The notes under the pieces were generated by a model that was not told the origin of the DNA, ran no database searches, and saw nothing but the letters and a program-made list of their open reading frames with translations. Shown here in pieces: positions 4,144-22,636 of a stretch of DNA of 49,941 nt (the stretch's first letter is position 1; every line of letters begins with the position of its first letter). Origin of the DNA: Bacillota bacterium (lineage in GTDB: Bacteria; Bacillota; Negativicutes; Sporomusales; CTSoil-080); NCBI GenBank assembly GCA_017889625.1, contig JAGGAD010000009.1, positions 1 to 49,941 of the forward strand, in the 5' to 3' direction. The position numbers were made by a program, and so were the translations under genes.

Positions 4144-4743
4144 ATGTTTAATATACTAATAAAGCCAAAGCTGCTACTAGTTATGGCCTTAATGGTGACA
4201 CTCCTTGCCGGGCCGCTTTCGAGTGGGGCTGCTGCAATTTCGTTATGGAAGGATAGTTCTAACTTATATGGTGATCGTAAAGCTACGCAGATTGGTGATA
4301 TTATAACAGTTATTATAAGTGAAAGCTCCAGTGCAGTTCGAAGTGGAGCTACCACTAATACTAAATCAGCTAGCGGATCAACAGATAATGGTAAGGGACT
4401 GTTTAAGTTCGTCAATTCATCAAGTTATGGTGGTAGTGACACATTTCAAGCCAAAGGATCACTTACCAACTCTAATCAGCTTTCAGCGAAACTTTCTGTA
4501 CAGGTTATTGCGGTTAAGCCCAATGGCAACTTGGTAATCTCAGGGAGCCAGATCACCAAACAAACAGGTGAGGAGCAGCGCATAACTATTACCGGAGAAA
4601 TTCGACCAGATGATATATCTATCAATAATACGATATATTCAAGTTATGTAGCTAATGCTCAAATTAAAATTGATGGCAAGGGATCAATTGCGGATAAACA
4701 GCGGCAGGGACTATTGAGCCAAATTCTTAACTTCCTGTTTTGA
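4144..4743 (+). CDS. flgH: Flagellar L-ring protein FlgH
   Basis: Forms the ring through which the flagellar rod passes the outer membrane, so it is direct evidence of a diderm envelope. The 199-residue protein has a signal peptide, then SLWKDSSNLYGDRKATQIGD and the late motif RPDDISINNTIYSS, and ends GLLSQILNFLF, all typical of FlgH. ATG 4144 lies just after AAAGGTGA and is preferred over GTG 4135. Unlike well-studied FlgH proteins there is no lipobox and no cysteine at all, so it cannot be an N-acylated lipoprotein. Confidence 0.93.
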   Translation: MFNILIKPKLLLVMALMVTLLAGPLSSGAAAISLWKDSSNLYGDRKATQIGDIITVIISESSSAVRSGATTNTKSASGSTDNGKGLFKFVNSSSYGGSDTFQAKGSLTNSNQLSAKLSVQVIAVKPNGNLVISGSQITKQTGEEQRITITGEIRPDDISINNTIYSSYVANAQIKIDGKGSIADKQRQGLLSQILNFLF

Positions 4744-4760
4744 GGAGGAAAGGGATTATA

Positions 4761-5789
4761 ATGCGAAAGAAAATTGCAATTAGCCTAGTAATGTTATTTA
4801 TGTTTTCAAGCATTGGCATAGCCATGGCGGGGGGACAAGCTGTCACACGAATCAAAGATATTGCTAAGATTCAAGGCGTACGAGGAAACCAATTAGTGGG
4901 GTATGGCTTAGTAGTTGGGTTAGCTGGAACCGGCGATTCGTCTAAAAGTGCGTTTACGGTACAATCGATAGCTAGTATGCTAAAAAATTTTGGGGTAACC
5001 GTATCAGCCAGTCAATTGCAGGGGAAGAATGTGGCAGCGGTTATGGTAACTGCTGATTTAGGACCTTTTGTTAAATCCGGCGATAACATTGATATAACAG
5101 TGTCATCTTTGGGGGATGCAAAAAGCTTGCAAGGGGGCATACTGTTACAGACGCCGCTTAAAGCTGCCACAGGATTAGTTTACGCAGTTGGACAGGGCTC
5201 ATTGTCTCTGGGAGGAAATAATACGAAACTTTTCTCAACAGTTGCTAAAATTCCTAATGGAGCAATAGTAGAGCGGGATGTACCGACCAAGATAGAAAAT
5301 AATGGTAGTATTGCACTGACTTTGAATAATCCTGATTTTACAACTGCTAGCCGAATTGCTAAAACTATCGAGCGGGAATTTGGCGTAAGTGTGATGGCAG
5401 TAGATGCCGGCACAGTTGAAATCAAGGTTCCTGGGGAATATGCAGACAATCTGGTGGGATTTATTGCGTCGTTAGAAGAACTGACGGTACGACCAGATAG
5501 TATTGCTAAAATAATAATTAATGAGCGGACCGGAACGGTAGTCATGGGTGGTAATGTAACGATTGATACAGTTGCGGTGGCACACGGGGGCTTATCGGTA
5601 AAAGTCGGTGGTCAAAAGTCGAGCTCAAGCGAAGCTAACCCAAATGTAGTAATATTGCCAACAACTGCTAGTATCGGAGATCTTGTCAATGCGCTTAACG
5701 CGGTTGGAGCAGCGCCACAAGAGGTCATTGCTATTATTCAGGCAATAAACGCCTCAGGTGCGCTTCATGCCGAACTTCAGTTTATTTAG
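4761..5789 (+). CDS. flgI: Flagellar P-ring protein FlgI
   Basis: Periplasmic protein that forms the P ring around the rod at the peptidoglycan. The 342-residue product has a signal peptide ending near SIGIAMAGG, then TRIKDIAKIQGVRGNQLVGY with GLVVGLAGTGD, the diagnostic FlgI N-terminus, and NPDFTTASRIAKTI and INERTGTVVMGG further on. ATG 4761 is chosen because it follows GGAGGAAAGG; an upstream TTG at 4740 lies before that site. Tightly packed between flgH and the FlgJ-like gene, with FlgA as the expected partner. Confidence 0.95.
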   Translation: MRKKIAISLVMLFMFSSIGIAMAGGQAVTRIKDIAKIQGVRGNQLVGYGLVVGLAGTGDSSKSAFTVQSIASMLKNFGVTVSASQLQGKNVAAVMVTADLGPFVKSGDNIDITVSSLGDAKSLQGGILLQTPLKAATGLVYAVGQGSLSLGGNNTKLFSTVAKIPNGAIVERDVPTKIENNGSIALTLNNPDFTTASRIAKTIEREFGVSVMAVDAGTVEIKVPGEYADNLVGFIASLEELTVRPDSIAKIIINERTGTVVMGGNVTIDTVAVAHGGLSVKVGGQKSSSSEANPNVVILPTTASIGDLVNALNAVGAAPQEVIAIIQAINASGALHAELQFI

Positions 5790-11676: not shown

Positions 11677-12956
11677 TTTTAAGTGCGGAAGCAAAAGTAG
11701 GAGCAGTAGCAGTAGTCGCATTTCTATTACTAATGGCAATGGTCGCTAATTTAGGTAATTTGAATTTTTGGGGCGAAAAAGGTTACCCGATCAAGGCGGT
11801 ATTTAGTGATGTCGGCGGATTGGTTGCCGGCAGCGGAGTAAGATATGCTGGGGTCGATGTAGGACGTGTAGACCTTGTTCAGACCGGGGTGGATGGCATT
11901 ACTGTTAGTATGCGCATAAACCATGATATTAAAATACCCGTAGGTTCACGGTTTATCATTAGTACCGACGGACTTATGGGTGAAAAATTTATCAGTATTA
12001 CACCGACCGCTAATAGTGAGGCCGGATTTATAGCTCCAGATACAGTGGTGCGTGGTGAAACGGCTAACGGTTTAGACAAATTAATAAGCAGCGGCGATAG
12101 GGTATTGGGGGAAATAGAAAAGCTGGTGTTGTCACTTAATGATGTACTTGGTGACGAGAAGGTTAAAGCATCGCTGAAGGCCACGGCCTTAAATGCTAAA
12201 GAAATAACCGACCGACTGAACGAATTAACCACGACCTTGGCCAGAATGGCCAGCAATAATGAACAAAATGTTGATGCGATGGCAACAAACCTAAGAATAA
12301 TGTCCGCTAGTTTAAGAGATGTCGCTGGCAGGGTAGATGTATTAGTTGCCAATGTCGATAATAATGGTCAAACGGCAAACGATGTTAGGGAAGCAATCAG
12401 TAATCTAAAAACTACTAGTATCCGAGTTGAACGAATGGCATCAGCCTTAGAAGGTGTAGTCACCGATCCGGGTACAGCCAGCGATCTTAAAGAAACTCTC
12501 AAAAACGCGCGGGAAGCCAGTGCGCGTGCTAATAAAAAATTAGCCCAGTTGGATAACATTAAAGTTGATACGGGAGTTGACCTTTTATATAATACCCACT
12601 CATCTAAATATCAAAGTAATGCCGATGTAAGAATCCGCACTTCCGATAATGCCTTTGCGGTCATTGGAGTAAATAATATCGGTGAAGGAAGCACCGGTAA
12701 CCTGGAGATAGGGCGAGGCAATGACAAGTTTGACACTAGAGTGGGACTAATTGAAGGTAAAGCCGGTATTGGAGCAGATGCGGCTGTAGGCAGTCAACTA
12801 AGGCTTTCTCTAGATATCTATGACCCCAATGATCCTCGGGTAAAACTACGCAGCCAGTATAAAATTGGACCAGATACCTTTCTTGTTGGCTTGACAGATA
12901 GTCTAAACAAGAACCCGGAAGAAAACACCTATATAGGATTACGTCACGATTTTTAA
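11673..12956 (+). CDS. mlaD: MlaD/MCE protein with coiled coil and C-terminal barrel-like region
   Basis: 427-residue MCE protein. Residues about 7-27 are a membrane anchor (VGAVAVVAFLLLMAMVANLG); about 38-120 form the MCE domain (VFSDVGGLVAGSGVRYAGVD, GLMGEKFISITPT); about 130-290 are helical and probably coiled coil (LNELTTTLARMASNNEQNVD). The last about 130 residues alternate in beta fashion (VRIRTSDNAFAVIGVNNIG, LRLSLDIYD) and end in YIGLRHDF with a terminal Phe, the usual signature of an outer-membrane barrel. This matches the transenvelope MlaD described in Veillonella parvula. E. coli MlaD (about 180 residues) has neither extension. Confidence 0.88.
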   Translation: MILSAEAKVGAVAVVAFLLLMAMVANLGNLNFWGEKGYPIKAVFSDVGGLVAGSGVRYAGVDVGRVDLVQTGVDGITVSMRINHDIKIPVGSRFIISTDGLMGEKFISITPTANSEAGFIAPDTVVRGETANGLDKLISSGDRVLGEIEKLVLSLNDVLGDEKVKASLKATALNAKEITDRLNELTTTLARMASNNEQNVDAMATNLRIMSASLRDVAGRVDVLVANVDNNGQTANDVREAISNLKTTSIRVERMASALEGVVTDPGTASDLKETLKNAREASARANKKLAQLDNIKVDTGVDLLYNTHSSKYQSNADVRIRTSDNAFAVIGVNNIGEGSTGNLEIGRGNDKFDTRVGLIEGKAGIGADAAVGSQLRLSLDIYDPNDPRVKLRSQYKIGPDTFLVGLTDSLNKNPEENTYIGLRHDF

Positions 12957-16100: not shown

Positions 16101-17512
16101 ATAGCATTATTGATGTGAAGCAAATACTGTTTACTAAAGGGCCGTATCGGGCCAGCGTTTATGGAACGATACCATTGGCAGCGTTAAATAAGACCGGTTG
16201 GTCTAAAGCTACTAGTTCAGATCAGATGGATTTAATGGTACGACTAGATCAAGCTGATTTAAGTATTTTGCCGATTCTAACTAAGGAAGTAGCTTGGGCG
16301 GCAGGAAAAACCAACGGCGAAATCAAGGTTGGGGGGAATTTGACCAAACCCTTACTTTATGGTAGTATCGTTATCGACAAGGGAATTATAAAAATGACGT
16401 CCCTGGCTGAACCAATCCAAAATGTGGGGGTTGATATTCAGCTTGAAGGTGATAAAATTAATGTTAAGTCCCTGACGGGCCAGATGGGAAAAGGCAATTA
16501 CTGCTTAACTGGTACTGCTATGCTCCAAGGCATGGGCCTTGGTGACTATAATATGGCGTTAGTATTGAATAAACTTGGAGTTAGCCATAAATATTTTAAA
16601 GGGCCATTAAGCGGTACGCTGACATTTGCAGAAAGCGGCGGCATCCCTAAGCTCAGTGGAAAAATAATATTAGAAGATATGGTAGCTAATATACCATTTG
16701 TGCCCGAATTTCCTGATTCAGGTTTGAATATAGGGTTAGATCTTGAGTTTGTTGCGCAAAATAAGGTCCGGCTAAGGAACTCGTATATGTACGACTTGTG
16801 GGTGGATGGCAAAGTTAATTTTGCCGGAACTACCAAGCGGCCAATTGCGACCGGTGAAATAAATGTTATCCGTGGGACAGTGAGCTATCTGCGAAATCAG
16901 TTCAAAGTACGTAGTGGACATGCAGAGTTTAACCAAGTCGGATCGTTTATTCCGGTAATTGGCCTTAATGCGGAAGCTTCGCTTGATAAAACCACTTTGT
17001 ACATGTCGGTTAATGGGCCGTTGACTGCGATGGAAGTAAAACTTTCATCTGAGCCAGAGCTTACTCAACAAGAAATACTCTCCTTGTTAACCCTCAGAAG
17101 CCGTTATTTTGAAAACTCGCGAACAGTATCGGAAAATCGTGACACTGGGCTTGGGCGGGAAGAATTTATCGGACTTTTGGATGCCGGTTTACAAATGCGA
17201 TTCTTAGGGGAGGCAGAAAGTTCGTTTCGCGATTACTTTGGCTTGGATGAATTCAGGCTGGTGCGGGGAACCCTTTCTTCAGATACCTCAGTAGCCAGTC
17301 GTGAAGCGACAACTACTGATAGTCAGCAATATAATTTATCTTTTGGTAAATACGTATCCAATAAATGGTTCTTACAATATTGGATGGGTGTTGATAAAAC
17401 GCGGAATGGTTTTTTAATTCGCTATGACGTTAACAAGTGGCTTAGCTTTACTGGTGAGCAAGATGAATTGGGAAATCAGCAAATCGGGGTGGAGACTAGA
17501 TTTAAATTCTAG
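13124..17512 (+). CDS. tamB: TamB-family (DUF490) transenvelope protein
   Basis: Very large AsmA-like protein (1462 residues). It has one N-terminal membrane segment (about 4-22, VIIIITLVILIFVGITTAYW), then over 1100 residues of repetitive beta-rich sequence with recurring GxIxG and 'V.G.I' patterns typical of the hydrophobic-groove fold, and the DUF490 domain over the last about 330 residues (GEINVIRGTVSYLRNQFKV, LTQQEILSLLTL), ending in ETRFKF with a terminal Phe. Family members are thought to conduct phospholipids between membranes or assist barrel assembly with a BamA/TamA partner. No tamA is present; BamA, five kb downstream, is the likely partner. GGGAGGC precedes ATG 13124. Confidence 0.92.
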   Translation: MRSKVIIIITLVILIFVGITTAYWHSKGQAVMAEVKGVLSEELTKRVGSNVSVGDITIVAFNKLAIQNLRISDDSGTICDSKTITVKFKPLSILTGAVFPAAVAEISIDAPTVYLKQYNDGKWNIDDILVKATETDNDFAGKVTINNAMIAITTPNGNWKFEEVTGCIDFGYMLGDTIDGAATYMGNPVEVVGVVNKTGCSVVEIRTPRFDLQNLTEFMPQNVRVTGLSGQLSNVKANVRYEQGQITYACQAGLDNGAFDLDGVPVRQAKGEIYFTEHNLSLFDLTTKVYNQDIAVKGEINFEDGTPNINLAVSSPYFDLNVLNCSDMAGIINFDTVVSGSVDNLTASGEANLVQGAFGGYNLNNAKVNFTYCDKIIKVNQANARMFDGDINAVGQITTDDKNFEFQISGNGVDLGQLPMLAQRLTGKGDFELCLSGTGSVAQANLAGIVRVAEGQVCGVPFKEILGNINKTGDDLGIDSMKIDFGTGSLVAKGKIENKILSIDFAGQEIPLASIATSVNGLVLTGVADCRGVVTGSLDNPNIIADVHAYNGEIFYQPYATLTGNISATKEKIVLTDIIAIQNDASQCGSGTIDLTGNVSLDSGKTQEGGSQCIDGTIGLTGDKQLDLTIITKRGRAENLMKLLSPGENLTGNVDSQIWITGPMAAYNAEGQVRLYEGSFRGQLVNNIQGSFRRKNNITELNNFEIEALNAKAKLFGTISADNSLDINILAQDVELAELHINYPYPVKGKARFNGKLTGNVDNITFHGSIAGEGIVLNGQKLKDVSGEIDINGDEINIPSFSFMHNEGKFTFDGSTNIKSGGVYGHLNTENGNIAGILSILNLKAKEVDGCLNGRVTVWGSMAKPNVWLTGTLTHGKIKNYPLENIDVDVSLENNIVTFEKFDATAGAGKLAIRGTAQIDGPINLEIGARDIDAGLLAAWFDANLLVTGKLGLTAQVSGNWSNPHAAVSLDIANGGLENATFDALYGMFILDNSIIDVKQILFTKGPYRASVYGTIPLAALNKTGWSKATSSDQMDLMVRLDQADLSILPILTKEVAWAAGKTNGEIKVGGNLTKPLLYGSIVIDKGIIKMTSLAEPIQNVGVDIQLEGDKINVKSLTGQMGKGNYCLTGTAMLQGMGLGDYNMALVLNKLGVSHKYFKGPLSGTLTFAESGGIPKLSGKIILEDMVANIPFVPEFPDSGLNIGLDLEFVAQNKVRLRNSYMYDLWVDGKVNFAGTTKRPIATGEINVIRGTVSYLRNQFKVRSGHAEFNQVGSFIPVIGLNAEASLDKTTLYMSVNGPLTAMEVKLSSEPELTQQEILSLLTLRSRYFENSRTVSENRDTGLGREEFIGLLDAGLQMRFLGEAESSFRDYFGLDEFRLVRGTLSSDTSVASREATTTDSQQYNLSFGKYVSNKWFLQYWMGVDKTRNGFLIRYDVNKWLSFTGEQDELGNQQIGVETRFKF

Positions 17513-17528
17513 CAAAAGGTGACGTGTG

Positions 17529-18179
17529 ATGCTAAAAAAATATTTAGCGGAATTAAATAAGGTACGCCTGTTGAAGCTGGACGAAGAGAAAGCTTTATGG
17601 CAGTCTTATAAAGACACGGGAGATCTTGACAGTAGGCGGCGTATCATTGAACATTATCAACCGCTAGTATTTAAAGTAGCTCTTCAATGGCGGGCTGATG
17701 AACCAATAATTTTGGACTTGATGCAGGAAGGCACCGTAGGATTGATTGAAGCTGCAGAGAATTATGACCATAACCGCGGCGTAGCTTTTAGCATATATGC
17801 CTACCACCGCATTCGCGGTCGGATGTTGAATTATCTTTCGCGGGAAGGTAAACTTAATTGGGTATATATGGATTCGCCGTTAAATGAAGAAGAAGGCAGT
17901 AAAACCCTTGGCGATTGTTTAGTCGACAATAAACTGGAAGTACCAATGCAAGTTGAAATTAACTACTTGGTGGATCAAGTCAAAACCGCGTTGGGGCGTC
18001 TGCCTGCTAAAGAACAAGTTGTAATTGCTGGAATGTATTTAGAAGAACAAGAACCTAAGCAATTAGCAGAATCTCTTGATATAAGTATCTCGCATATTTA
18101 TCGTTTGCAAAAACAGGGAATTCGCCGGGTTCGGGGGATGTTGTCCCGATTAATGCAAGATATGAAAAAAACATTATAA
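17529..18179 (+). CDS. Sigma-70 family RNA polymerase sigma factor
   Basis: 216-residue alternative sigma factor with region 2 (LVFKVALQWRADEP, DLMQEGTVGLIEAAENYD, FSIYAYHRIRGRMLNYL) and region 4 (LGRLPAKEQVVIAGMYLEEQ, LAESLDISISHIYRLQKQG). It lacks region 1.1 and apparently region 3, so it resembles sporulation/flagellar-type or ECF-like small factors but I cannot place it in a named group. ATG 17529 is chosen over GTG 17526 because AAAGGTGA lies 5-7 nt upstream. It sits inside the outer-membrane cluster directly after tamB (16-nt gap), suggesting co-transcription and a possible link to envelope control. Confidence 0.88.
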   Translation: MLKKYLAELNKVRLLKLDEEKALWQSYKDTGDLDSRRRIIEHYQPLVFKVALQWRADEPIILDLMQEGTVGLIEAAENYDHNRGVAFSIYAYHRIRGRMLNYLSREGKLNWVYMDSPLNEEEGSKTLGDCLVDNKLEVPMQVEINYLVDQVKTALGRLPAKEQVVIAGMYLEEQEPKQLAESLDISISHIYRLQKQGIRRVRGMLSRLMQDMKKTL

Positions 18180-18323
18180 ACTGGTAAATAGGCTGAACTA
18201 GGGTGAATCCGGGCGTAAACTTTGTATAATCGTGATAAACGCCTAAATATGCCCATGGATGGTTGACCAATCTTTGACCTCTTTGGATGACTATATATCA
18301 TGGTTATAACAGGGGTGGTTAAA

Positions 18324-18926
18324 ATGGCTGATTTTAAACGACAAATGTTTGGACACTTGCGTTCAGCTAAAATTTGGCTGGCACGCGCTGAAGAATCATT
18401 TGACAACGATAGTGATGTTCGTGGTGAACTTAACCTATTTTTGGCGCAGGCCGAGCTGCAACACGCTAGAGAAAAGAATTTATCCCAGCGGTGGCAGTAC
18501 AAATATCCGCTTATTCGGCATGTGTTATCGGTGGCCTTGGCAATGGTTTTTGTATTCGGCGGTTATGGTGCGTATCAGTTGGCGATTCGCCAACCTTCGA
18601 TGACGTCAGCTCCGTCGCTTGCGGTAAACGAACCGATGACGGTTAGTGAAAGCAAGGTTGCTCAGGCTGTAGTTGCGGTAAATCCTGCAGATGCTGAAAC
18701 TTCTGCAGTTCCTGTAACTGCTCAAACCACCAATCAGCCTACCTTATCAGAGCCGCCGGTTGGGCCTGTGGTAATCAATAGTCCGGCTTTATCATCGCCA
18801 ACTGTAACAGTAGCCGAGGTAAAGCATCAATCGGCAGCTACGTCGGCTGCAAAAGAAAAGTTATTGTCGCCAGATGAGATGGAGAAGGTTATCCGTGCGG
18901 CTGAAAAGTCGCTACGAGGCCAATAA
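18324..18926 (+). CDS. Single-pass membrane protein of unknown function
   Basis: Unrecognised 200-residue protein. Residues 1-65 are a charged, probably helical cytoplasmic domain (HLRSAKIWLARAEESFDND, LFLAQAELQHAREKN); about 66-87 form one membrane helix (VLSVALAMVFVFGGYGAYQL); the rest is a Pro/Ala/Val/Ser-rich outer tail with a final charged helix (LSPDEMEKVIRAAEKSLRG). ATG 18324 follows AGGGGTGG at the right distance; an upstream ATG at 18300 lacks one. It lies between a sigma factor and bamA. The topology would suit a membrane-bound partner of the sigma factor, but no anti-sigma motif is visible. Confidence 0.72.
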   Translation: MADFKRQMFGHLRSAKIWLARAEESFDNDSDVRGELNLFLAQAELQHAREKNLSQRWQYKYPLIRHVLSVALAMVFVFGGYGAYQLAIRQPSMTSAPSLAVNEPMTVSESKVAQAVVAVNPADAETSAVPVTAQTTNQPTLSEPPVGPVVINSPALSSPTVTVAEVKHQSAATSAAKEKLLSPDEMEKVIRAAEKSLRGQ

Positions 18927-18947: not shown

Positions 18948-20723
18948 ATGAGAACAACAACTCGCTTTAGCAAACTACTTTTAGCGACTGCTTTAACAAT
19001 GTGCATTATGTTTAGTGCTGTTGCCCCAATGTATGCGGCGGATTTAACTGGCAAAACAGTTACCGCAGTAGAAGTTTCCGGTAATATTACTGTACCGGAA
19101 AGCACCATTATGGCGGCGGTACAAGTTAAACCTGGTGACACGTTTGAAGCGGAAAAAATTAAGCAAGATATGAAGGCAATCTACGATCTTGGCAACTTCT
19201 TTGATGTGACTGTGAACTTTACCGAAGTTCCAGAAGGTGTCAAAATTGTATTCGCAGTAATGGAAAATCCAACATTGAGTGACATTGTAATTAAAGGAAA
19301 CACTAAGGTCTCCACTGAAAAACTAAAGAGTTTATTGACAGTGGACAAGGGTAAGGTATTAAATACCAAAGCCCTGCGAGAAAACGCCCGTATAATCGAA
19401 AACTACTATCATGATCAGGGTTATATTTTAGCTCGGGTCAGTGATGTATCCTTAGGTGACGGTGGGAAAATAAACCTGACCATCAACGAAGGTACGCTTG
19501 AGGACATCGTTATCAAAGGTAATGAAAAAACTAAATCCTATGTTATTACCCGTGAGATGAAAGTTAAACAGGGCGAACCTTTTAACGCCAATGATGCTCG
19601 GCGGAGCATGCAAAGACTGTACAACCTTGGCTTCTTTGAAGATGTAAACATGAAGCTAAATGCTGGGGTTCAGCCTAACTCCGTGGTGCTAGAGACTGAT
19701 GTAACCGAACAGAAAACGGGGACCTTCTCCATCGGTGCCGGCTACAGTGAATCTGACGGTATGGTAGGGATTATTGAAGTTGGTGACAACAACTTCCGTG
19801 GTACTGGCGACGCCGCTAAAGTATATTGGGAATTCGGCGGCGATTCAATATCAAACGGCTATCGATTCTCCTATACTAAGCCGTGGTTAGATAAAAAACA
19901 GACTTCGTTAAGTGTTAACTGGTATGACTTGACGAATAAATACAGCGACTATGGAACACTATCAAGCTCAAGTAATTATACAACCGTAGAAGATGGTACT
20001 TCGTCAACGTGCCGTTCTACGTATTACAAAAATGTAAAAGGTTTTGATCTTACTTTGGGCCGGGCCCAAGGCGAATACCTGCACAATTATTTCACCATAA
20101 AAAACCGTAGAGATACTTGGGTTAAGGCATACTCTGGGGTGGACTATAGCGGAAGTGCTTATGACGCCTATCGGGAGGAAAACTTTGGCTTGACTCGTAG
20201 TGCGTCCTTCTCGAGAGTTTTCGATTCTCGGGATAACGTCTTCAGTCCGACTGAAGGAACGCGGTTTGCAGTAACTGCTGAATTTGCGGGAAGAGCTTTA
20301 GGCGGAGATTTTAACTTTAACAAGTATACGGTAGAAGACCGTAACTACTTTAAAGTGGGACATAGCCAAGTAATTGCCACACGGGTAACTGCTGGTTATG
20401 CTGAAGGTAACCTGCCGCTGTCCCAAAAATTCTCGGTTGGTGGCTCGGATAGCTTACGTGGCTATGATGACGATCAGTTCACTGGTAAGAAAATGATGGC
20501 GGCAACGGTAGAATACCGATTCCCTATTGTTAAAAAAGTCGAAGGGGTTTTCTTTGGCGACTTAGGCAATGCATGGGATCGCGATGATTATAAACTAAAT
20601 GATCTTAAGGGCGACGTTGGTTTTGGAATCCGTCTCAATACACCGCTGGGACCAATCCGTTTGGATTATGCCCGGGGTGAAAATGGCGGTAAAACGTCCT
20701 TTAGTTTTGGTGGTCAATTCTAA
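18948..20723 (+). CDS. bamA: BamA, outer-membrane protein assembly factor
   Basis: Central component for folding outer-membrane barrel proteins. The 591-residue precursor has a signal peptide (to about MYAADLTGK) and three POTRA domains: about 33-105 (VTAVEVSGNITVPESTI), 106-180 (LSDIVIKGNTKVSTEKL) and 181-260 (LEDIVIKGNEKTKSYVI). The remaining 330 residues form the barrel, with the conserved FSVGGSDSLRGYDDDQF motif and a C-terminal FSFGGQF. E. coli BamA has five POTRAs. AAAGGAGG precedes ATG 18948. It is likely also the partner of TamB. A hairpin follows at 20734-20758. Confidence 0.96.
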   Translation: MRTTTRFSKLLLATALTMCIMFSAVAPMYAADLTGKTVTAVEVSGNITVPESTIMAAVQVKPGDTFEAEKIKQDMKAIYDLGNFFDVTVNFTEVPEGVKIVFAVMENPTLSDIVIKGNTKVSTEKLKSLLTVDKGKVLNTKALRENARIIENYYHDQGYILARVSDVSLGDGGKINLTINEGTLEDIVIKGNEKTKSYVITREMKVKQGEPFNANDARRSMQRLYNLGFFEDVNMKLNAGVQPNSVVLETDVTEQKTGTFSIGAGYSESDGMVGIIEVGDNNFRGTGDAAKVYWEFGGDSISNGYRFSYTKPWLDKKQTSLSVNWYDLTNKYSDYGTLSSSSNYTTVEDGTSSTCRSTYYKNVKGFDLTLGRAQGEYLHNYFTIKNRRDTWVKAYSGVDYSGSAYDAYREENFGLTRSASFSRVFDSRDNVFSPTEGTRFAVTAEFAGRALGGDFNFNKYTVEDRNYFKVGHSQVIATRVTAGYAEGNLPLSQKFSVGGSDSLRGYDDDQFTGKKMMAATVEYRFPIVKKVEGVFFGDLGNAWDRDDYKLNDLKGDVGFGIRLNTPLGPIRLDYARGENGGKTSFSFGGQF

Positions 20724-20733
20724 TAGGGGAAAA

Positions 20734-20758
20734 AGAGTCAGGTCTAGCACCTGACTCT
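20734..20758 (+). terminator. Hairpin after bamA, possible weak terminator
   Basis: AGAGTCAGGT (20734-20743) pairs perfectly with ACCTGACTCT (20749-20758) over a 5-nt loop. There is an A tract before it but no T tract after it, so it may attenuate or stabilise the message rather than fully terminate. Confidence 0.55.
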
Positions 20759-20768
20759 AACCTTATCA

Positions 20769-22091
20769 ATGGCAAAATTTCAATGGCAGGGGGTGACGCT
20801 TATCGCTGGACTGAGATTTCGCCGGATAATTTTTTGTTTGCTAATTATTATAGTGGTGGCACCGTTAGGACTTGTATGTGCTGAAGAAGAATCAGCTGAT
20901 TCAGTAACCGTAAGTGTTAAGGCCAGCAAAGTGTCACTCCCTGACCGAGTAGCCAAGCGAATGGAGCTAAGTATTGCTACCGTTGGCGAACAAGTAATTG
21001 TTGGCCGTAAGGTAGGCGAGATTGCTACTAACCGAGAGGCCTATGAACGGATAATTAAAGAAGTGTTTGATCGGGTATTAGTAGGCTACTCGGTAGAACG
21101 TGCTACGATTACGGCTGGCAAGGTTACGCATATTGATGTAGTTCTTTCGCCATGGGGCGATATTGTGCGTGATATTAAGCTGGAGATAGACTTTGGGGCC
21201 ATGAGACCGGAAACAGTTTCTTTAATAAAACAGGACTTAGGCAATCTTGAAGCTGAAATAAGAAATATTCTCGTGGGAATGCCTGTTGAGTCGGTGGATT
21301 GGAGCGGCGGAGTGACCAAGCTGGTTATTCGCGAAGCTCTTGCGGAGCAATTACCCGAATTTCGAGCTAATTTGGAAATAGTGCCCGGGCCGACGACAGT
21401 AGTAAAATTAGCGCTATTACCAGCTGGACCTACTGTTCAGGATACCAGGATTATTATTCGATCGCAAAGTATTCCCAATATCTTACTGTTAGAGGCTCGT
21501 CCACCGGTGGAAGAGGCGGCAACCAAGCTTAGGGGACTGCCGGTAGCTTTTGTTGAGCGTCACGGCGACTTCTTTAATAAGCAGATAAATGATTCGCTCA
21601 TTAATCACGCGGTCGTTAAACGGTATGGGTTGACGTTAAATGTAAATATAAGTGCGGGAACTGATACCGAAGTTAAAATTAACGCTGAGACTAATAAGTA
21701 TCGAGTAACTTTAGAAGGCTTGCTTGATGTAGGGCGAAAAGAGGATAACACCTCAGCGATACTTCATTTTGGGAGATATTTTGCGAAGCAACATGAGTTT
21801 TTCGTTGAGACAACTTTTATTACGTCGACTGTTGCTTGGAAAGTTGCCCCTGGCTGGGGTTATCATTGGGATAAATGGTTTGAGGCTGGTTTAAAATATG
21901 ATTTAAATAACCAATGTAGTATTATCTGGGCTAAACGCGACCTTGGTAAAAATTGGAGCTTAAGACTGGAACGCCTGGCGGACAGTGGTTACACTGAACT
22001 GGGGTTGCGCTATAAATTGCATGAATTTTTAAGTGCTGAATATGTATTTACCAGTGATACTAAATGGCTGAGGTTAGTAGGTAACCTATAG
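20769..22091 (+). CDS. Unknown exported protein with POTRA-like and barrel-like regions
   Basis: I do not recognise this 440-residue protein. It has a signal peptide (FCLLIIIVVAPLGLVCAEEE). About residues 45-310 are alternating alpha/beta modules reminiscent of POTRA units (EAYERIIKEVFDRVLVGYSV, FVERHGDFFNKQINDSLI). The last about 130 residues alternate in beta fashion with many aromatic residues (FFVETTFITSTVAWKVAPGW, WFEAGLKYDLNNQCSIIW, YTELGLRYKLHEFLSAEYVF) and could form a small barrel. The start is uncertain: ATG 20769 has no ribosome binding site; GTG 20793 lies next to a GGGGG run. Its position between bamA and the skp-like genes suggests a role in outer-membrane protein assembly. Confidence 0.7.
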   Translation: MAKFQWQGVTLIAGLRFRRIIFCLLIIIVVAPLGLVCAEEESADSVTVSVKASKVSLPDRVAKRMELSIATVGEQVIVGRKVGEIATNREAYERIIKEVFDRVLVGYSVERATITAGKVTHIDVVLSPWGDIVRDIKLEIDFGAMRPETVSLIKQDLGNLEAEIRNILVGMPVESVDWSGGVTKLVIREALAEQLPEFRANLEIVPGPTTVVKLALLPAGPTVQDTRIIIRSQSIPNILLLEARPPVEEAATKLRGLPVAFVERHGDFFNKQINDSLINHAVVKRYGLTLNVNISAGTDTEVKINAETNKYRVTLEGLLDVGRKEDNTSAILHFGRYFAKQHEFFVETTFITSTVAWKVAPGWGYHWDKWFEAGLKYDLNNQCSIIWAKRDLGKNWSLRLERLADSGYTELGLRYKLHEFLSAEYVFTSDTKWLRLVGNL

Positions 22092-22098
22092 AATATCC

Positions 22099-22127
22099 TT
22101 GAACAAGGAAAAGCGGCCTGCTATAAT
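22099..22127 (+). promoter_or_regulatory. Strong sigma-A-type promoter of the ompH genes
   Basis: TTGAAC (22099-22104) and TATAAT (22122-22127) are 17 bp apart, with an extended -10 TGC directly before TATAAT. Predicted start near 22134, about 38 nt before the first ompH-like gene. It is one of the best promoters in the window. Confidence 0.8.
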
Positions 22128-22171
22128 GAAGAAGTAAAAATTATGTCAAGTACTGAAAGAGGGGTATTTAA

Positions 22172-22636
22172 GTGCTGAAAATTGATAAAAGACAAGTAAA
22201 AATTGTATCACTAGCGGTGGTAGTGTTTTTCTTGCTGGGGATAGTCGGAATTGCCGCATCACAAAGCAGCAAAACCTATGCTGCACCATCCTCGAATATC
22301 GGGATCGTGAATTATAACGCGATTATCCAGCAACATCCTGATACCGCAAAAGCTGAAGAAACCTTAAAAGCCGAATATGAAAATCTTAAAAAAGAATATG
22401 AAACCAGGTCGGCATCCATGAGCGATCAGGAGAAACAAGACTATCAATCTCAACTCCAGCAACGGATGTCGCAAAAACAACAAGAATTATTAAAAGAAAT
22501 TACTGATAAAGTTGATGCAACTGTAAAAGGGATCGCTGAAGCTAAAGGGTTAACCGTAGTAATTGATAAAAACTATGTAGTATACGGTGGACAGGATATT
22601 ACCGACGAAGTGCTGAAAAAAATCACCGGTAAATAA
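22172..22636 (+). CDS. ompH: OmpH/Skp-family periplasmic chaperone (copy 1)
   Basis: Periplasmic holdase that keeps unfolded outer-membrane proteins soluble on their way to BamA. The 154-residue precursor has a signal anchor/peptide (IVSLAVVVFFLLGIVGIAAS), the family start IGIVNYNAIIQQHP, a Glu/Lys/Gln-rich helical hairpin (about 60-125) and the closing motif AEAKGLTVVIDKNYVVYGGQ with DITDEVLKKI. A GTG start follows GAGGGG. A strong extended -10 promoter lies just upstream, fitting a chaperone needed in quantity. Two longer or lipidated relatives follow. Confidence 0.9.
   Translation: MLKIDKRQVKIVSLAVVVFFLLGIVGIAASQSSKTYAAPSSNIGIVNYNAIIQQHPDTAKAEETLKAEYENLKKEYETRSASMSDQEKQDYQSQLQQRMSQKQQELLKEITDKVDATVKGIAEAKGLTVVIDKNYVVYGGQDITDEVLKKITGK

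Follow-up and report, generated by a model that had tools for sequence, protein, structure and literature searches.

Proteins of the Omp85 superfamily (BamA, TamA, TamL and FhaC) carry tandem POTRA domains in the periplasm followed by a C-terminal barrel in the outer membrane, and BamA binds substrates and partners through its POTRA domains. Apart from these, a 2014 survey knew of just one POTRA protein, FtsQ (PMC4104836). Among the diderm Firmicutes, Veillonella parvula has neither BamB-E nor any known outer-membrane lipoproteins, and the question has been put explicitly of whether unrelated proteins have taken the place of such components (PMC10665443). With neither BamB-E nor a known envelope stress system, diderm Firmicutes must build and survey their outer membrane in some other way. 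The stretch of DNA that we analysed (49,941 nucleotides, hereafter the window) encodes a protein of 440 amino acids, P440 (20769..22091, plus strand), that is a concrete candidate for such a replacement. Its partners and its lineage pattern make the replacement question testable. The signalling systems closest to the locus in outline are cell-surface signalling of the FecA-FecR-FecI type and sigmaE-RseA, with which it shares a sigma factor, a neighbouring single-pass inner-membrane protein with a cytoplasmic N-terminus, and an outer-membrane barrel with periplasmic domains.

P440 consists of a signal peptide, three POTRA-fold domains and a C-terminal 10-strand barrel, the latter two as predicted by modelling. 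The gene is present in one copy in its genome, and its homologues preserve the reading frame at 30–68% identity. Since it is single-copy, class-wide and conserved in frame, the ORF is real far beyond chance; a chance ORF was ruled out by this conservation together with the single-copy synteny. Many homologues start at the alignment column of an in-frame GTG at 20793, which makes this codon the likely true start. The signal peptide (residues about 1–38; 20769..20882, plus strand) appears, by eye, to be cleaved after VCA. It ends in GLVCA with no consensus lipobox, and in the family alignment most homologues carry AxA-type ends with no Cys at that place. Searches by sequence of Pfam, NCBIfam and the PDB gave zero significant matches, either for the single protein or for the family profile, and a search of open-licence papers found none on P440.

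To obtain a structural view, the full protein was modelled by AlphaFold2 with 52 homologues (mean pLDDT 88.8, pTM 0.69), and its N-terminal part was also modelled alone (residues 40–309, pLDDT 90.6). In order, the full model shows a helix at residues 7–36, which is the signal helix, three modules in which a strand is followed by two to three helices and a further pair of strands, and finally ten strands at residues 311–439. The three predicted beta-alpha-alpha(-alpha)-beta-beta modules stand in tandem in residues 45–307. From the model, the structure matches and the homology of the repeats, they were delimited as POTRA-fold domains 1 (residues 45–128; 20901..21152), 2 (residues 135–218; 21171..21422) and 3 (residues 225–307; 21441..21689), all on the plus strand. 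With this region as query, 50 of the 50 best Foldseek matches in the PDB were POTRA chains of the Omp85 family (BamA, TamA, Toc75 and relatives), and VIA-align reached Z scores of up to 7.6 spanning all three domains. The RMSD was mostly 10–18 Å over whole arrays, which we put down to differing hinge angles between the domains; a single CdiB POTRA aligned at 3.3 Å across 80 residues.

The three repeats are also mutually related by profile (hhalign 87–95%), and the POTRAs of the neighbouring BamA are clearly related to each other. Between the two proteins, hhalign stayed under 5%, which makes a relation undetectable, and the Pfam POTRA families PF07244, PF08479 and PF08478 matched neither the window's P440 (P0001) nor any of the 52 family members. 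As profile similarity to the BamA POTRAs is undetectable, the POTRA assignment rests on fold, not on sequence; judged by the fold of the predicted model, P440 bears three POTRA domains.

The C-terminal part of P440 (residues 311–440; 21699..22088, plus strand) is modelled as a closed barrel, beginning at about residue 308; the count of ten strands depends on the AlphaFold2 prediction with its 52 sequences (pTM 0.69). It runs to the last residue of the protein, where it ends in WLRLVGNL, as in many outer-membrane proteins. In structure, it comes closest to the 10-strand barrel of OpcA (Z 13.5) and to the designed 10-strand transmembrane barrel TMB10 (Z 13.0). The strands alternate between hydrophobic and polar residues, and the polar inner face is conserved and includes the invariant residues R399, E424 and R435. 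This alternation and the charged inner residues fit a membrane barrel with a charged interior, so that an outer-membrane location of P440 is predicted and would be expected. A soluble barrel of the nitrobindin/FABP type (Z 9–10) was rejected, because the conserved charged residues lie opposite the hydrophobic face and membrane barrels match best. A first-pass annotation, made from the DNA letters, had proposed a signal peptide, POTRA-like alpha/beta modules and a C-terminal barrel. The first two agree with the signal helix in the model and with the matches of residues 45–307 to BamA, TamA and Toc75 arrays in Foldseek and VIA-align. The barrel was recovered as well, closed over residues 308–440, with 10 strands instead of the 8 suggested for comparison.

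Similarity to the barrel of P440 was seen in further proteins. In hhalign comparisons of the segments 21699-22088 (P440), 17200-17512 (TamB) and 12600-12956 (MlaD) of the window, the P440 barrel was weakly similar to the C-terminus of TamB (68%) and to the MlaD barrel (38%), both encoded in the same operon; by these profiles, a common origin of small outer-membrane anchors is possible. Separately, in genome G379, a locus (L196, about 4496–5053) encodes a 185-aa signal-peptide protein between bamA and skp with a P440-like barrel and no POTRAs. Neither sigma factor nor orf208 was detected at that locus, and the protein may perhaps be a barrel-only relative or ancestor of P440.

The arrangement of tandem POTRAs before a C-terminal barrel is that of the Omp85 superfamily, and the number of three POTRAs is that of TamA. 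However, the P440 barrel has 10 strands in about 130 residues against 16 strands in Omp85 proteins, and P440 has no PF01103 or POTRA match in Pfam. An Omp85 domain (PF01103/TIGR03303) was not found in P440, whereas BamA next door matches at 4e-44, and the RGY/RGF motif of the L6 loop is absent, by reading, from residues 305–440. On these grounds, namely strand number, PF01103 and the RGY/RGF motif, membership in Omp85 was rejected. OpcA and the designed TMB10 have barrels of the same geometry but lack POTRAs, at a sequence identity of about 10%. Thus, as far as the searched libraries show, P440 belongs neither with the Omp85/TpsB superfamily nor with FtsQ and represents a further kind of POTRA protein. 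The model predicts a new architecture for an outer-membrane protein, i.e. three POTRAs on a small 10-strand barrel.

To describe where P440 occurs, several genome sets were searched. P440 was found in 56 of 60 relatives, and its profile matched in 237 of 300 sampled Negativicutes genomes. A pattern scan of genome contigs with the single sequence recovered zero relatives, and one based on the alignment recovered 126 P440-encoding loci. The best 80 of these 126 are titled Negativicutes or Bacillota, bar one MAG labelled Acholeplasmataceae (L097); it has a full Negativicutes-type outer-membrane operon and is almost certainly misbinned or mislabelled. Outside Negativicutes, the phylum sample contains 13 genomes with a P440 match at E 1e-30 or better; they belong to seven other family groups and are scattered over other diderm classes. 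Matches at E 0.04 in G303 and G349 were discounted, as they cover 34 residues. In the phylum sample as a whole, P440 is present in 25 of the 101 Omp85-positive genomes versus 0 of the 297 Omp85-negative ones. The family is therefore wider than Negativicutes, yet confined to Omp85-bearing genomes in this sample.

In the window, bamA (18948..20723, plus strand; three POTRAs and an Omp85 barrel) flanks P440, and the common gene order is tamB, sigma, orf208, bamA, P440, skp. Of 80 Negativicutes loci, 79 have P440 immediately 3′ of bamA and the 80th is at a contig end; the non-Negativicutes loci with bamA on the same contig show the same placement. The position directly between bamA and the skp genes, given by the first-pass annotation, was thus confirmed. 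The tie to bamA is strict: P440 adjoins bamA wherever checkable and is missing from all Omp85-less genomes of the phylum sample. Its further proposal, a lineage-specific partner standing in for BamB-E, held up only in part. The POTRA-like modules, the predicted barrel and the tie to bamA speak for it, but 76 of the 101 Omp85-positive genomes have no P440, and P440-less Negativicutes keep BamA followed by skp with 28–156 bases between them. In Veillonella parvula, the skp genes vpar_0528-30 are directly behind bamA, vpar_0527 (PMC5491611), and BamB-E are missing too (PMC10665443). P440 is thus no general substitute for BamB-E. Several lineages, Veillonella by the literature included, keep BamA and lack both BamB-E and P440, and because BamA and skp persist where P440 is absent, BAM works without it. 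We saw no extra POTRAs in the BamA of P440-less genomes that could serve as compensation. Many Negativicutes (L051-L163) carry an N-terminal extension of BamA before POTRA 1 that is long, seemingly disordered, very variable in length and independent of P440. Compensation by BamA additions was rejected, as these extensions look disordered and are present both with and without P440.

Upstream of bamA, the locus contains two genes that accompany P440. A sigma-70 family sigma factor with regions 2 and 4 (17526..18179, plus strand) lies between tamB and bamA, and orf208 (18300..18926, plus strand; likely start ATG 18324) directly follows it. In an alignment of 33 orf208 members, a conserved cytoplasmic N-terminal piece of ~55 residues precedes a single transmembrane segment, whose orientation is positive-inside in 83 of 88; a periplasmic linker rich in Pro and Ala follows, and the protein closes with a conserved C-terminal peptide. 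No match in the sequence and family libraries, including the Pfam anti-sigma families, marks orf208 as an anti-sigma factor. Anti-sigma genes usually directly follow their sigma gene, and from its topology and gene order, orf208 is a candidate anti-sigma factor or transducer. A sporulation sigma factor is unlikely, because the module occurs in Megasphaera, Phascolarctobacterium and Selenomonas, which are generally known as non-sporulating genera.

The gap between the sigma factor and orf208 contains a DNA element (TGACC..TGRCCTCTT..GACTATATA..GGTTATAAY; 18263..18318, plus strand) that is conserved in Sporomusales-type genomes ahead of orf208-bamA-P440. With up to 2 mismatches allowed, 7 of 10 genomes contained the pattern, in most cases a single time and immediately ahead of orf208; two of the ten had one additional weak match. 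The window's own element is too divergent for that pattern and was located by its own sequence. Most of the ten genomes scanned have no clear second copy, and hence the element gives no independent evidence of a wider regulon.

The three genes are inherited together. Among 300 Negativicutes genomes, P440 and orf208 occur together in 235, P440 alone in 2, orf208 alone in 0 and neither of them in 63, counted without orf208 matches to the linker only; weak orf208 matches (E 1e-3 to 1e-8) were discounted as mainly low-complexity linker. Outside Negativicutes, all 13 of 13 P440 genomes carry orf208 and Omp85, and the sigma factor of the locus was found in 6 of 6 P440-bearing versus 0 of 11 P440-less genomes tested. 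Negativicutes loci without P440 also lack the sigma factor and orf208, and their tamB-bamA gap shrinks from ~1,400 to mostly 40–330 bases. One such gap, in L156, measures 927 bases and holds a transposase-like ORF (11684–12199) between tamB and bamA, whose sequence looks like the IS200 type.

On a tree built from the BamA proteins of 90 loci, 13 changes of P440 were counted, and well-supported branches force at least 9 of them. The sigma factor and orf208 change in the same way as P440 in about 8.4 of 9 independent pairs and hardly ever in the opposite one (sign test on independent pairs, median p about 0.008, on a quick BamA tree with some long branches). Because a retained bamA separates the sigma factor and orf208 on its upstream side from P440 on its downstream side, the joint change is not one simple deletion; possibly, the whole stretch was swapped by recombination with a P440-less relative. 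The repeated joint loss or gain of the three genes is a mark of shared function; which way information flows between them is not evident from co-occurrence.

A few genomes outside Negativicutes separate the genes. G311, G511 and G630 keep the sigma factor and orf208 and have no P440, and in 3 of 3 the C-terminal peptide of orf208 is absent, one orf208 being only 134 aa long. In the P440-bearing genomes outside Negativicutes, the orf208 match reaches the peptide in 13 of 13; the absence side of this correlation consists of only three P440-less genomes. The simplest reading of these sequences would be that the C-terminal peptide of orf208 meets P440.

From this pattern we infer, at a probability of roughly one half, a trans-envelope regulatory module of sigma factor, orf208 and P440 that is linked to BAM within the tamB-bamA-skp operon and has P440 as its outer-membrane end. 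The joint occurrence of P440 and the two genes ahead of bamA, for a sigma factor and a membrane protein, had escaped the first-pass annotation and argues for regulation or signalling rather than for a structural Bam subunit. In such a module, the sigma factor would act in the cytoplasm and orf208 in the inner membrane, with the POTRAs of P440 in the periplasm and its barrel in the outer membrane. The sigma factor would be held by orf208 through the conserved cytoplasmic N-terminus, and orf208 would span the periplasm and dock its C-terminal peptide on the P440 POTRAs, for instance by strand addition. Beside BamA, P440 might report the quality of outer-membrane protein assembly. A change in its state would alter orf208, and the sigma factor would be freed or held, thereby adjusting the orf208-bamA-P440 unit, which has the conserved element ahead of it, and perhaps more. 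We regard it tentatively, with the odds somewhat against it, as an undescribed envelope-sensing system of diderm Firmicutes in which P440 reads the state of BAM and signals via orf208 to a dedicated sigma factor controlling bamA.

As with FecA-type receptors, the predicted P440 barrel is encoded with a sigma factor and a single-pass regulator. It differs from FecA in having POTRAs instead of an STN domain and a 10-strand instead of a TonB-dependent 22-strand barrel, with no Pfam match. Neither orf208 nor P440 has detectable homology to the FecA-FecR-FecI system, and the P440 module is built into the bam operon. P440 resembles BamB-E in its genetic association with bamA and its predicted place at the outer membrane facing the periplasm; unlike these lipoproteins, it is a barrel-anchored POTRA fold that is not universal in its lineage and is tied to a sigma factor. 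Together, the three genes look like a circuit by which diderm Firmicutes monitor or adjust the assembly of their outer membrane, and the P440-less genera of Negativicutes are ready natural comparisons.

The main rival to this circuit, which we consider unlikely, is an accessory assembly factor with sigma-regulated supply. As a lineage-specific part of BAM, P440 would take over substrates from Skp with its POTRAs or bind BamA with them, its barrel would replace the lipid anchor of BamB-E, and the sigma factor and orf208 would control its supply. P440 directly adjoins bamA and skp everywhere, BamA itself binds substrates and partners through its POTRAs, and co-loss implies a shared function without direction, so that the sigma factor could simply control such an accessory. 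V. parvula, with neither BamB-E nor known outer-membrane lipoproteins, and the barrel anchors that serve other functions of this envelope, e.g. the MlaD barrel, also fit (PMC10665443). However, many BamA-bearing genomes do without P440 and have no compensating BamA POTRAs, three quarters of the Omp85-positive genomes counted above (76/101) lack P440, and the joint presence of the orf208 peptide and P440 would stay unexplained.

This peptide, found only with P440 at the end of a long Pro/Ala-rich linker, would also suit a physical bridge between the membranes, in which orf208 is anchored in the inner membrane and binds P440 at the outer one, while the sigma factor has no more than a regulatory role. 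In a bridge, however, the conserved cytoplasmic domain of orf208 would be unneeded, and OmpM is already described as the outer-membrane tether of this group (PMC10665443), which makes such a role improbable. We think it very improbable that P440 is a TamA-like partner of TamB with a shrunken barrel, used for lipid or protein transport: its 10 instead of 16 strands, the lack of any Omp85 sequence signal and the retention of tamB where P440 is absent stand against the three POTRAs of TamA, its place among the best Foldseek matches, the tamB gene in the same operon and the weak profile similarity between the barrel and the C-terminus of TamB (probability 68% in hhalign). The trans-envelope circuit is the reading that we prefer.

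Finally, two features of the intergenic regions were noted. Between bamA and P440, positions 20723-20766 can form a strong hairpin with a perfect inner stem of 10 bp (-20.3 kcal/mol, z -4.5) and no T run, which could be an attenuator or an RNA processing site. Between P440 and skp1 (22092-22172), a sigma-A-like promoter sequence (TTGAAC ... TATAAT) was recognized by eye, which suggests that the skp genes may be transcribed apart from bamA-P440.
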